This document shows, piece after piece, positions 28,038 through 33,956 of a stretch of DNA of 64,000 nucleotides. The translations under genes were made by a program, and so were the position numbers. The stretch covers positions 372,001-436,000 of the forward strand of contig NZ_CP007030.1 of the NCBI RefSeq assembly GCF_000227665.2, given 5' to 3'. Below the pieces are notes generated by a model. It was given only the letters and a program-made list of their open reading frames with translations. It did no database searches and was not told the origin of the DNA. Position 1 is the first letter of the stretch. The number at the start of each line of letters is the position of its first letter. The stretch is from Thiomicrospira aerophila AL3 (GTDB lineage Bacteria; Pseudomonadota; Gammaproteobacteria; Thiomicrospirales; Thiomicrospiraceae).

Positions 28038-30328
28038 CAAAGCACAGGTTAAAAAAGTGGTTGTTCGGCCTAGGTTTAACCGGCTCTTTAGCGGGCACGG
28101 CGAGCAGCAGTTGGGCATTAGATGAAGCGGCGGCATTAGCAGAATGGCAGGCGTTTTTAAATCAGCAAACAGAGCTGGTGACGCGAACAAAACTGAATGC
28201 TGACTTTGTTCCGGGTTCTATTACCGTGTTACATGGCGAAACTCTGGTTAGGTATGGCGCAAAAACGCTGGCAGATGCCTTAGCCTTGGCACCCAATATC
28301 GATATGCAAATTAACCTGTTAGGCCAACGGGTCATTGTTATGCGCGGTGTGGGTGCGGCCTTTTCTAATTCAAGTGTTAAGGTCATGCTTGATGGCGTCA
28401 ATACGGTGCATGCGAGTCAGGGGTTTGCACAAACTCTATTGCATATGCCTGTTGAGCAAATTGAGCGGATTGAGATTATCCGCGGTGCGGCAACCGTGGT
28501 GCATGGTGAAGATGCGATTGCCGGTGTGGTTAATATTATTACTCGTGATACGCCGCATGCCCATCTAGCCGTTGGTTCGAATGGTTATCGTGGCGCGTCG
28601 ATTTCCCAAGGCTCGGACCTAGGTTCAGGACGCGTGCGCATTAATTTGAGTGCCTGGGGTCATCAGGCTACTGGCGTGCGCGCTGAAAGTGACGCAGTGA
28701 CGGTGTTTTCGGATGCAGTGAATGAACGATTTGGTTCATCGTTTGGTTTTGAGCAGTATTCAGCCGCACCTGGCCGGGTCAATAATCAGCGCGCCTTTGA
28801 GCAGCTGCAGTTAGGTTGGCAAACCGACCAGACGCAGCTAAGTTTTGCATACAATCGCCTGCGAACGGGTGATTTTTATGGCGTGATTGAGTTTTTACCG
28901 CCCAGTGACGAGCGTTATGCGCAGACCTATGAAGATTATCTAATCAGTTTGAACCATGAGCAGGCGTTGACCAATAATCTGCGCAGTGTCACGCAGCTGT
29001 CGCTGAGTCAATTGAGTTATGAGCTAGATACACTATATGTACCAAATTTAATTCCAGGCTCAGTTGTGAACAACCTTCAACAAGGAGTTTTAAGTTTTTG
29101 TAGTTCGCAGCCAGAACCTATGAACTGTATAAATGAGGAAACCTCTAGACTCTCATTTTTGCCTGGTTTTTTGGAGCAACAAAGTTACATTAATCAAGTC
29201 CGCGAGCAGCAAGTCCAGCTTCAGCAACAGTTTATTTATGATTTAAACTCCGCACATCGTTTATTGTTTGGCGTGGATGTACGGTGGGTTGAGATTACTC
29301 ATGCAGCTGCAGAGGGTATTCAAAATTTACCGAGTAATGACCATGAGAATGTAAAAACTCGGTTTGGTTCAACTGGTGACAGCAGGCATACGCTTGCGTT
29401 GTTCTTGCAGGATGAATGGCGTATTAGTGAAGATTTTACATTAACGGCAGGGATTAGATGGCAGCAGCAATGGGTTAACTATACTGACCGTTCGAAAGAT
29501 AATCAAAAATTGGCTGATCCTTGGCAGGACTTAGAAGTTGCAAAAGTGACACCTAAATTAGCCGCGGTTTGGCAAGTTGCGCCAAAACATATTTTAAAAG
29601 CGCAGTTTAGTCAGAGTCATGTCACGCCGCCAATCAATCAAGTAACGGATGTAGGTAACTTAAAGCCAGGTGAAGTTCGTCCAGAGGCTGCTCAGTCCGA
29701 TCATTACGAGCTAGGGTATGTATATGCTGGTTATGTGCAAACCCATCGTATAACCTTCTATCATTCTGAATTTGCACAACTCGCTGCGGGTACCCATTAT
29801 TATCATTATTTTAGACCATTAAATGCAAGTGAGTTTGGACAAACTGACTATGCCGGTTTACGCCAAATCCGCGCTAAGGGTGTGGAGTGGGATGCTGATT
29901 TTAGACTCGGTTTTCGTTGGCGAGGGTTTACTAATTTAAGTATTAATCAAACGGATGACCTGTCTGGCAATGCTGTCGTCGGGTCGCGTCCCTATTTAGG
30001 GCGATTAGGCTTAGACTATAAATTTAATGATGCGCTGCATTTAGCCGGGAGTGTATCCTATGCCGCTCCCTTAGCGCTGGAGCCTTATGATGATCGTGAT
30101 GATTTACCTAGCTATTGGCTATGGAATGCGGCGGCAAACTATATGTTACCCGTCCGCGGTTGGCGGGCTAGGTTAACCGTCAATAATCTGACTAATGTGC
30201 AGGTCGCCAGTCCATCACCGATTAATGTTTCCTTGAGTCAGTTGGCTGGTAAACCCACAGCCCCTTATGCCAATGGCTATCTCCATGAGGGGCGGAGTAT
30301 TACTTTGAGTTTAGATTATCAGTTTTAA
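28031..30328 (+). CDS. TonB-dependent outer-membrane receptor
   Basis: About 765 residues. A signal peptide (basic KHRLKKW then GLGLTGSLAGTASSSWA) is followed by the plug domain: TLADALALAPNID, VIVMRGVG, VKVMLDGV, IERIEIIRGAATVVHGEDAIAGVVNIITR. The barrel ends with a C-terminal aromatic, LSLDYQF. I favour the TTG at 28031, which has GGGAG eight bases upstream and overlaps the DUF1840 stop; a GTG at 28016 is also in frame. Two Cys in one predicted loop (about 356 and 365) may form a disulfide. The substrate is not evident; siderophore, cobalamin or another metal complex are possible. The 3' end overlaps ubiB tail to tail by 29 bases. Confidence 0.88.
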   Translation: MVTKHRLKKWLFGLGLTGSLAGTASSSWALDEAAALAEWQAFLNQQTELVTRTKLNADFVPGSITVLHGETLVRYGAKTLADALALAPNIDMQINLLGQRVIVMRGVGAAFSNSSVKVMLDGVNTVHASQGFAQTLLHMPVEQIERIEIIRGAATVVHGEDAIAGVVNIITRDTPHAHLAVGSNGYRGASISQGSDLGSGRVRINLSAWGHQATGVRAESDAVTVFSDAVNERFGSSFGFEQYSAAPGRVNNQRAFEQLQLGWQTDQTQLSFAYNRLRTGDFYGVIEFLPPSDERYAQTYEDYLISLNHEQALTNNLRSVTQLSLSQLSYELDTLYVPNLIPGSVVNNLQQGVLSFCSSQPEPMNCINEETSRLSFLPGFLEQQSYINQVREQQVQLQQQFIYDLNSAHRLLFGVDVRWVEITHAAAEGIQNLPSNDHENVKTRFGSTGDSRHTLALFLQDEWRISEDFTLTAGIRWQQQWVNYTDRSKDNQKLADPWQDLEVAKVTPKLAAVWQVAPKHILKAQFSQSHVTPPINQVTDVGNLKPGEVRPEAAQSDHYELGYVYAGYVQTHRITFYHSEFAQLAAGTHYYHYFRPLNASEFGQTDYAGLRQIRAKGVEWDADFRLGFRWRGFTNLSINQTDDLSGNAVVGSRPYLGRLGLDYKFNDALHLAGSVSYAAPLALEPYDDRDDLPSYWLWNAAANYMLPVRGWRARLTVNNLTNVQVASPSPINVSLSQLAGKPTAPYANGYLHEGRSITLSLDYQF

Positions 30329-31943
30329 GCACTAACCATGCAGCGCTGATAAGCAGGCCTGCTTGTATCCAGCCGGCCATGTCTAAGCCTGGGTTTTGTA
30401 ATTCTAAGTAAATGGCTACGCCAACTAATGCAATAGCAATGGCACGGCGGCGTTGTTGTTTGGCTTGGTTTTCGAGCGCTTTTTCGAGTCGCGCGATTTG
30501 GCCAGAGTGCAATTCTAATTGACCATGCGCGGCTTTATTTAGCACCGAATGCACCAGGCCTGGTAGCTGCGGTGCGTTTTCAATCCAAAACGGCAGGTTG
30601 CGTTGGGTGTTTTTAATCAGGCTTTTTAGGCCAACTCGTTCTTGCATCCAGTCTTCTAAAAAGGGTTTAGCGGTATCCCATAAATCCAGTTCATCATCCA
30701 GCTGACGCCCTAAACCTTCAATGTTTAATAGGGTTTTTTGCAATAACACCAATTGCGGTTGCACCTCCATACCAAAGCGACGTGCGGTTTGGAACAAACG
30801 CATTAAAAACAAACCAAATGAAATCTCTTTTAACGGACGATCCCAGATCGGTTCACAGACCGCGCGAATGGCGGATTCAAGTTCATTGACACGGGTATTT
30901 TTTGGCACCCACTCAGATTCAATATGCAGCTCAGATACGCGCAGGTAATCGCGATTAAAAAATGCCAAAAAGTTCTCGGCTAGATAACGCTGATCTTCCG
31001 GTGTGAGCGTACCCATGATGCCAAAATCGATTGCCGCATAGCGACCATCCGGTAGGACAAAAATATTGCCCGGGTGCATATCAGCATGGAAGAAGTTATG
31101 CTTAAACACCTGGGTAAAGAAAATCGTCACCCCTTTGGCTGACAGGTCGGTGAGGTCGATGCCTTGTGCAATCAGTTTTTCGGTTTCAGAAATCCGCGTG
31201 CCATAAATACGCTCCATCGTCATCACATGCTCATTGGTATGTGACCAGTAGATTTCCGGTACATACAATAAATCTGAATCAGCAAAATTGCGTTTGAGTT
31301 GCGCCGCATTCGCTGCTTCACGCATCATGTCCATTTCATCGAGGATGGTTTTTTCAAATTCGCCCACCACTTCAGTGGGGTGTAAGCGGCGACTTTCCTT
31401 AACCGCGATTTCGACCAAGCGAGCGAGGGTGAACATAATGGACACATCTTGCTCAATAACCGGTTTGATGTCGGGGCGCACCACCTTAACGACCACTTCT
31501 TCACCGCTATGGAGTTTAGCGGCATGCACCTGCGCCATCGACGCCGATGCCATCGGGGTGGCTTCAAATTCGGCATAGGCCTCAGCAATTGAGCGCTTGA
31601 GTCCTTTTTCGATAATTTGACGTGAGCGGGTTTCATCAAAGGGTGGGCAATCGTCTTGTAATTTGGTCAGTTCAACCGAAATGTCTTCTGGGAGCAGGTC
31701 TTTGCGGGTGGAGAGGGCTTGGCCGAGCTTGATAAAAATCGGTCCAAGTTCTTCTAAGGCCAGACGCAGACGCAGACCCCGATCACCTTGATGGGTCGCG
31801 CGCCAGTTCCAAGGGAACAGTACACGATTAAGCCAAATGAACGCGCGATATTTGCTGTTGCCCAGCACCATTTCATCGAGTCGATAATGGGTAATGACTC
31901 GGTTAATTTTGATTAAACGAAATAACTGTTTGATGGGGTTCAT
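30300..31943 (-). CDS. ubiB: Ubiquinone biosynthesis kinase-like protein UbiB
   Basis: 547 residues, an ABC1/ADCK atypical kinase required for ubiquinone synthesis at the membrane. It has the invariant KxGQ motif (IKLGQALSTR, about 72-80), the Ala-rich nucleotide loop ASMAQVHAAK, and the catalytic HADMHPGNIF and DFGIMG motifs. The C-terminal tail has two membrane helices, as in E. coli UbiB. It is the last gene of the DUF971-ubiE-ubiJ-ubiB run; the small ubiJ-like gene lies ten bases upstream. Two CAGGCCTG copies (30354, 30555) lie in the less conserved C-terminal region. Confidence 0.94.
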   Translation of the reverse strand: MNPIKQLFRLIKINRVITHYRLDEMVLGNSKYRAFIWLNRVLFPWNWRATHQGDRGLRLRLALEELGPIFIKLGQALSTRKDLLPEDISVELTKLQDDCPPFDETRSRQIIEKGLKRSIAEAYAEFEATPMASASMAQVHAAKLHSGEEVVVKVVRPDIKPVIEQDVSIMFTLARLVEIAVKESRRLHPTEVVGEFEKTILDEMDMMREAANAAQLKRNFADSDLLYVPEIYWSHTNEHVMTMERIYGTRISETEKLIAQGIDLTDLSAKGVTIFFTQVFKHNFFHADMHPGNIFVLPDGRYAAIDFGIMGTLTPEDQRYLAENFLAFFNRDYLRVSELHIESEWVPKNTRVNELESAIRAVCEPIWDRPLKEISFGLFLMRLFQTARRFGMEVQPQLVLLQKTLLNIEGLGRQLDDELDLWDTAKPFLEDWMQERVGLKSLIKNTQRNLPFWIENAPQLPGLVHSVLNKAAHGQLELHSGQIARLEKALENQAKQQRRRAIAIALVGVAIYLELQNPGLDMAGWIQAGLLISAAWLVLKTDNLNSK

Positions 31944-31952
31944 AAGAGGTCT

Positions 31953-32240
31953 TTAAGGGTTAATGGCGTTTTTCATACGTTGAATTCGCGCATCCATTTC
32001 ATTAAGGCGGTTGTCAAGCTCTGCAACTTGCTGGGCAAAGGTTTCGAATTCAGTGCGTGTAGGTAACACATCCAGTTCATAACGCACATATTCTTTTAGC
32101 ATCTGCTCGCCGTCATTCTTAAACGCACGGGTTTGGTCTTTAAATTGGCGCACACGATAGCCTATTTGAAAGGCGAGTGGATCGCCGACTAGCTTCGCTA
32201 AATCATCTTCCCAATCACGTTTGGCACGTTCTGTGGTCAT
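31953..32240 (-). CDS. Short UbiJ-like protein lacking the SCP2 domain
   Basis: 95 residues in the exact place of ubiJ, between ubiE and ubiB. The sequence aligns by eye with the C-terminal part of UbiJ: VGDPLAFQIGYRVRQF, then MLKEYVRYELDVLPTRTEFE and a coiled-coil with QQVAELDNRLNEMDARIQRM. The first ~100 residues of UbiJ, the SCP2 lipid-binding domain, are absent; the start is close to the ubiE stop, so no room exists for it. A UbiK-like identity is also possible, since both proteins end in similar coils. The remaining part may still bind UbiK and the Ubi enzyme complex. No frameshift or SCP2 remnant was seen in the adjoining DNA. Confidence 0.7.
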   Translation of the reverse strand: MTTERAKRDWEDDLAKLVGDPLAFQIGYRVRQFKDQTRAFKNDGEQMLKEYVRYELDVLPTRTEFETFAQQVAELDNRLNEMDARIQRMKNAINP

Positions 32241-32996
32241 TTAGAACTTCCATCCTCTATGTAATGCAACAATTCCGCCGGTCATATTCATATAGGTGGC
32301 ACGATCAAAGCCGGCATCGAGCATCATCTGTTTTAAAGTGTCTTGATCAGGATGCATGCGGATGGATTCAGCAAGATATTGGTAACTTGCCTCATCTTTG
32401 GCGATTAACTTGCCCATTTTGGGCAGGATTTTAAAGGAGTAAACATCGTAAACTGGACTCAGCAGCGGGCTATGTACTTTAGAAAACTCTAAAATAAGTG
32501 CCTGCCCACCGGGTTTCAGTACGCGATAAATTTCAGCCAGTGCTTGGTCTTTGTGGGTGACATTGCGCAAACCAAATGCCATGGTCACGACATCAAAATG
32601 ATTGTCTGGAAAACTCAAGGCTTCGGCGTTAGCGACGTTAAATTTGACCTGGCTGCCAACGCCGGCATCAATTAAGCGATCGCGCCCAACACGCAGCATG
32701 GACTCGTTAATATCAGCAAGGACCACTGTACCGGTTTTACCAACTTTTTTTGCCATTGCCAGGCTTAAATCCCCCGTGCCGCCTGCTAAATCCAATACCG
32801 TCATGCCCGGGCGTACGCCACTGAGCGCGATGGTTTGCTGTTTCCACAGTCGGTGAATGCCCAGCGACATAACATCGTTCATCAGATCATAATTGTCAGC
32901 GACAGAGTCAAACACGCTTTTAACTTTTTTGACTTTTTCATTTAAGGGGACTTGGCTAAAACCAAAGTCGATGGTGTTGTTGTCTTGTTGGTTCAT
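32241..32996 (-). CDS. ubiE: Ubiquinone/menaquinone C-methyltransferase
   Basis: A 251-residue SAM-dependent C-methyltransferase of ubiquinone (and menaquinone) synthesis. It has the UbiE signature [19 protein letters not shown] near 28-46, SAM motif [14 protein letters not shown] near 68-80, FGLRNV and the [14 protein letters not shown] strand. It overlaps the DUF971 gene by four bases and abuts the ubiJ-like gene directly. The operon order ubiE-ubiJ-ubiB is the usual gammaproteobacterial one. Confidence 0.95.
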
Positions 32997-33378: not shown

Positions 33379-33651
33379 TTAGGCCGCCTCTGGGCTTGGT
33401 GCCTCTATGTGGCAGTTGTCATATAAATCAGCAATAGGGAAGCAGAGATCAAAATCTCCCCATTCTAAGTCCCCATCTGTAAGGCGATAGGCTTTAAATA
33501 AAGAGAGGTCTTGATATTTGCTAATCGCTGGATTGAGTGATGATTTTATAAAGTCCGCAAAATCTATCTTTTGAATTTTTCCGTCATTGAAAAATAGTTT
33601 AAGTTGATAGTCACCAAGATAATCAACCTTATCAATTTTGAGGGTTATCAT
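33379..33651 (-). CDS. DUF2442-family protein
   Basis: 90 residues, small and mostly beta: ITLKIDKVDYLGDYQLKLFF, DGKIQKIDF, FKAYRLTDGDLEWGDFDLCF. This matches DUF2442, usually encoded next to a DUF4160 gene as here, and the two overlap by four bases. The pair is often predicted as a toxin-antitoxin-like module, without firm biochemical proof. It lies only three bases upstream of DUF971, so it could read through into the ubi genes. Confidence 0.8.
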   Translation of the reverse strand: MITLKIDKVDYLGDYQLKLFFNDGKIQKIDFADFIKSSLNPAISKYQDLSLFKAYRLTDGDLEWGDFDLCFPIADLYDNCHIEAPSPEAA

Positions 33652-33956
33652 CGTTTTACTCTCCCTTCAATATGAATACAGGTGATTGATTTATGATAAA
33701 CAAAGTAATCAATCCAACGCTGGATAATTTGATCGCTAAACGCAGCAACAAATTCTTTAAAGTCTTTTTGTTTCGCAGGTTCTAGCGGTCTTTTGCCACG
33801 CACCTCTTTTATTAAAATATCGACCAGCTTGCCATCTATTATGATTAACTCTGCCTTGCTTTCCATACCTTGAAACTTACCATGAACATGAATTGGCTCG
33901 TGTTCATTTGAATAAAACATAATGATAATACCAAGGTATTCAAAAAGTTTTGGCAT
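33648..33956 (-). CDS. DUF4160-family protein
   Basis: 102 residues. The entry FEYLGIIIMFYSNEHEPIHV followed by HGKFQGMESKAELIIIDGKL is the clear DUF4160 signature, with the HEPIHVHG histidines that suggest a metal or catalytic site. The later EVRGKRPLEPAKQKDFKEFV and QIIQRWIDYFV helices match too. Its partner DUF2442 overlaps downstream. Together they sit between hslU and DUF971, where other gammaproteobacteria usually have nothing, so they look like an insertion. Function unproven. Confidence 0.8.
   Translation of the reverse strand: MPKLFEYLGIIIMFYSNEHEPIHVHGKFQGMESKAELIIIDGKLVDILIKEVRGKRPLEPAKQKDFKEFVAAFSDQIIQRWIDYFVYHKSITCIHIEGRVKR

Follow-up and report, generated by a model that had tools for sequence, protein, structure and literature searches.

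The window, a 64,000-nucleotide stretch of the Thiomicrospira aerophila AL3 genome (contig NZ_CP007030.1, positions 372,001 to 436,000), holds a short open reading frame at the place of ubiJ, between ubiE and ubiB (Table 1). The products of the two flanking genes both exceed the curated equivalog cut-offs of their NCBIfam profiles. At the TAAATG junction the ubiE stop codon lies immediately 5' of the ATG of the short gene and in the same frame, so that upstream extension of the reading frame is impossible. Its best NCBIfam match is UbiJ (NF047938), confined to positions 116-199 of 201, with a score of 22.5 bits (E 7e-5) that lies far under the 275-bit cut-off set for whole UbiJ; three Thiomicrospira relatives match positions 114-199 of the same profile with up to 31.6 bits and with E values down to 1.2e-7. 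The SCP2 profile PF02036 has no match in the 95-residue product.

The original prediction, made from the DNA alone, of a gene that retains only the C-terminal half of UbiJ, with the SCP2 domain missing and ubiE directly abutting, is thus borne out, and the profile searches, which could have pointed to an unrelated family, leave UbiJ as the best match. The description of the product as the coiled-coil part of UbiJ is too narrow: the C-terminal coiled coil is retained, but so are the DWEE...GD..AF segment and a hinge helix (E. coli residues ~116-170). An AlphaFold2 model of the single chain places helices at residues 3-18, 21-58 and 62-93 with a mean pLDDT of 83.4 (pTM 0.38, from an alignment of four sequences); a fold search with this model returned nothing useful, as is expected for a helical coil.

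Table 1. Genes of the ubiE-ubiJ-ubiB segment of T. aerophila AL3 (window positions)
Feature	Position	Strand	Basis
ubiE, methyltransferase	32241..32996	-	NF001240, 407 bits (cut-off 378)
ubiJ remnant, 95-aa SCP2-less UbiJ, ATG start	31953..32240	-	NF047938 positions 116-199, alignment with full-length relatives, AlphaFold2
ubiB, downstream of short ubiJ	30300..31943	-	NF003404, 735 bits (cut-off 667)

Elsewhere on the minus strand of the window, at 33379-33956, two small overlapping genes lie between hslU and a GBBH-like_N gene; judged by eye, the pair has a DUF2442/DUF4160-type likeness.

Distribution, origin and selection of short ubiJ

In a survey of 63 genomes of the order, a UbiJ of 88-99 residues is found in all nine Thiomicrospira genomes, among them Thiomicrospira sp. 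ALE5, T. microaerophila ASL8-2 and one Thiomicrospira MAG. All nine short forms begin M-x(2-9)-DWEE, with the same domain boundary at the SCP2 end; the start codon touches or overlaps the ubiE stop, and frame and start are kept throughout despite changes of length. The comparison of ubiE-ubiB gaps in relatives, proposed with the original prediction, yielded full-length UbiJ wherever a further genus matched the coil, the frames there spanning 203-258 residues with the exception of one contig-end case (a 106-residue frame in genome G045, rejected as a short UbiJ because the contig end cuts it). Of 304 matches in 370 gammaproteobacteria, the stronger half was listed, and in that half every frame outside Thiomicrospira is at least 166 residues long; a few more short forms may lie in the weaker half. 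The 166-residue frame, in genome G329, was likewise rejected as a short UbiJ, being a frameshifted full-length gene. At that locus (L098, G329:C7:1000-3600) the frameshift splits ubiJ, placing the SCP2 part and the coil part in different frames; in this MAG it may be a sequencing error.

In a tree of joined UbiE and UbiB (735 columns, with E. coli as outgroup), the nine short-form genomes form one clade (UFBoot 100) that lies inside full-length genera (clade support 98), although support for its exact placement among them is poor (23-60). A single clade nested in this manner makes one deletion of the SCP2 domain the simplest history. The dN/dS ratios of short ubiJ in three close species pairs, each with few substitutions, are 0.15, 0.25 and 0.10; by this measure, the range of 0.10-0.25 shows the product to be under selection as a protein. 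Chance or decay is ruled out by the recurrence of the short gene in nine genomes, genus-wide, together with these ratios. Nine residues are invariant from Thiomicrospira to E. coli (alignment A2): D9, G19, D20, A23, R31, E50, E55, P60 and R85.

SCP2 proteins, UbiK and a mirror-image genus

The AL3 genome is a single contig of 2,158,359 bases, rated 100% complete. Neither a full-length ubiJ, which would have refuted the original prediction, nor any other SCP2 protein was found in it, PF02036 giving nothing at E<=10. Across the genus the same profile produces weak matches only (E 0.04-0.5, in frames of 273-1251 residues). A profile (A1) built from 18 UbiJ SCP2 domains, of family members plus E. 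coli, finds nothing at E<=1 in any of the nine Thiomicrospira genomes; it detects the SCP2 domain of UbiJ in 52 of the 54 remaining genomes of the family at E values of 1e-14 to 1e-43, the exceptions being G045, in which a contig-end fragment matches, and a fragmented MAG (G038) in which ubiE was also not found. UbiT is the SCP2 protein of the O2-independent pathway and the first place to look for a substitute SCP2 domain, but its model (NF047962) has no match in Thiomicrospira at E<=10. UbiU of the same pathway was rejected as a candidate in Thiomicrospira: the E. coli protein gives only partial U32 matches there, at ~33-34% identity and in frames of 480-570 residues, which are read, from these alignments, as a different U32 protein.

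UbiK was sought and found in AL3 (87 bits). It is present in eight of the nine Thiomicrospira genomes, the single miss being an 83%-complete MAG. An adjacent pair of O2-dependent hydroxylases of UbiI/H type is present in all eight Thiomicrospira genomes tested, and likewise in full-length relatives and in the genus discussed below; the literature searched on Thiomicrospira held no statement of its major quinone. In E. coli, UbiJ residues L191, R194 and L195 are predicted to be coupled with R72, I73 and E77 of UbiK (PMC9499169). The Thiomicrospira counterparts are M82, R85 (invariant) and I86 in UbiJ, and K72, L73 and E77 in UbiK. E. coli E199 is replaced by K90, so that its pairing with UbiK is not kept; on the whole, the UbiJ residues for which co-evolution with UbiK has been reported are still compatible in the short form. 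Among the 370 gammaproteobacteria, the UbiJ coil and UbiK tend to occur together: 288 have both, 16 the coil only, 34 UbiK only and 32 neither, for an odds ratio of 17, a statistic that ignores phylogeny and includes lineages without ubiquinone. The 16 coil-only genomes run counter to the association. Further UbiJ variants may hide among the 34 UbiK-only and 16 coil-only genomes.

The reverse arrangement is found in a genus of the same family, g2, represented by four MAGs (loci L050-L053 of G001-G004, labeled Thiotrichales bacterium 2016_B01_C_3, 35-46-9, Gammaproteobacteria JN10.006 and T. cyclica SulCav). Here the UbiJ between ubiE and ubiB is 170-177 residues long, matches NF047938 at positions 3-157, and by alignment is without the last ~40 residues, which are the coil. 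It matches the A1 profile at E values of 1e-29 to 1e-33, the g2 sequences themselves being among the A1 rows, and an independent profile matches it to the crystal structures of E. coli UbiJ SCP2 (6H6N/O/P) at E 2e-6. Since an AlphaFold2 model of g2 UbiJ reached a pLDDT of 42, the assignment of its SCP2 domain rests on these sequence profiles. UbiK (PF04380) was undetected in all four g2 MAGs (completeness 97, 100, 81 and 99%). The loss of coil and UbiK together, with SCP2 kept, favors the reading of coil plus UbiK as a scaffold, one of two options that the original prediction had left side by side. The MAG labeled Thiomicrospira cyclica (SulCav_PC08; L089, DYST01000009.1) groups with g2 in the UbiE+UbiB tree, outside Thiomicrospira, and its label looks wrong.

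A proposed scaffold without an SCP2 pocket

Short UbiJ resembles E. coli UbiJ (YigP) in its ubiE-ubiB position, in the homology of residues ~116-199, in the presence of a UbiK partner, and in that the predicted UbiK-contact residues are mostly conserved or compatible; it is unlike it in being a protein of 95 residues without SCP2 rather than one of 201 residues with SCP2 (residues 1-~115; PDB 6H6N/O/P). We propose that the ancestor of Thiomicrospira lost the SCP2 domain through an in-frame deletion of about 110 codons, which left an all-helical UbiJ of 88-99 residues. This product would still make a heterotrimeric coiled coil with UbiK, and through the coil the Ubi enzymes would be organized on the membrane, a role that is also thought to fall to the C-terminus of E. 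coli UbiJ. Ubiquinone intermediates would be passed on without an SCP2 pocket, and the shielding might be provided by the Ubi enzymes themselves, by the membrane surface or by amphipathic helices of UbiJ and UbiK. In E. coli, the C-terminus of UbiJ mediates UbiK binding and the C-termini of the two proteins form a 1:2 coiled coil (PMC9499169). The Q8 levels of the E. coli ubiJ truncations described below (PMC5581919) also speak for the proposal, although the activity of the 3' region has been credited to an sRNA. Counting against a dispensable SCP2 domain are its binding of ubiquinone intermediates in E. coli (PMC6747719) and the treatment of SCP2 lipid binding as central in the E. coli literature (PMC10863985). 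On balance it is probable, if by no means assured, that in the oxygen-dependent Ubi pathway the UbiJ coil and UbiK serve as the scaffold module, and that Thiomicrospira can dispense with SCP2 lipid shielding.

The wider proposition, that UbiJ is made of two modules, each lost independently, to give an SCP2-free metabolon (coil plus UbiK) in Thiomicrospira and an SCP2 protein without coil or UbiK in g2, has in our judgment an even chance of being right. Current models cast the SCP2 domain of UbiJ as the carrier of hydrophobic ubiquinone precursors in a soluble enzyme complex; were the two-module reading true, the SCP2 pocket would not be obligate in the aerobic ubiquinone metabolon. Thiomicrospira, with no detectable SCP2, and g2, with neither coil nor UbiK, form a natural deletion pair that separates scaffold from carrier. 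Score cut-offs set on whole UbiJ will report ubiJ as absent from Thiomicrospira genomes; no earlier mention of UbiJ with Thiomicrospira was found in the literature covered, which leaves out most subscription papers.

Almost all other genomes of the family retain SCP2, which suggests that its function matters, and lipid shielding may still be needed in Thiomicrospira, having moved to a carrier of another kind (START/RatA-type, for example) with short UbiJ as an adaptor only. The searches of AL3 and the genus uncovered no SCP2 protein of any kind, and the ubiE-ubiJ-ubiB locus is without an added gene; such a transfer of function is unlikely, though it deserves to be kept in mind. A different account would have the 3' half of ubiJ kept for an EsrE-like sRNA and not for a protein. 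In E. coli the activity of this half is said to have been attributed by Aussel et al. in 2014 to the C-terminal ~50 residues. It has also been attributed to the sRNA EsrE, whose gene sits in the 3' part of ubiJ and which is reported to support Q8 synthesis (PMC5581919). The laboratory truncations of that study (Xia 2017, PMC5581919) resemble the Thiomicrospira gene in their architecture, and in them Q8 synthesis is sustained by the 3'/C-terminal part without the rest of the gene: ubiJ minus 283 bp at its 5' end allows wild-type growth with 50% Q8, and a 3'-deletion brings Q8 down to tiny amounts. They are constructs, disputed as protein or sRNA, whereas the short form of Thiomicrospira is natural and fixed in the genus, and it is on this dispute about the 3' half of E. 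coli ubiJ that the short gene bears. The low dN/dS ratios of the three species pairs and the preservation of frame and start in all nine genomes speak against an sRNA, and an Rfam search gave no related match, making this account very improbable. Protein-level selection on the retained half therefore favors protein function in Thiomicrospira; the E. coli case is not settled by it.

The loss of a whole domain and the small genomes of Thiomicrospira would suit a decaying relic of a ubiJ that is no longer needed, yet purifying selection, retention in nine of nine genomes, an intact start beside the ubiE stop and invariant residues common to E. coli UbiJ make this scarcely credible. Least credible of all is that the short gene encodes a second UbiK-like (BMFP) protein and is not a descendant of ubiJ. 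UbiK/BMFP proteins (PF04380) are like short UbiJ in size, in being all-helical with a C-terminal coiled coil, and in a weak profile similarity: PF04380 matches the 95-residue product at E 0.04, and a comparison of the UbiJ and UbiK profiles gives a probability of 28.5%. However, the 95-residue product scores 13-15 bits against a PF04380 gathering cut-off of 37.2 bits, the UbiJ model outscores the UbiK model on the short ORF, and a bona fide UbiK is encoded separately in AL3; synteny and the DWEE..GD..AF motif in common with full-length UbiJ point the same way. The C-terminal coil of UbiJ in another genus, g5, itself matches PF04380 (G020:C133:4952-5152, 2e-6; G021:C161:1187-1384, 5e-5), and these similarities hint that the UbiJ coil and UbiK may be of common ancestry.
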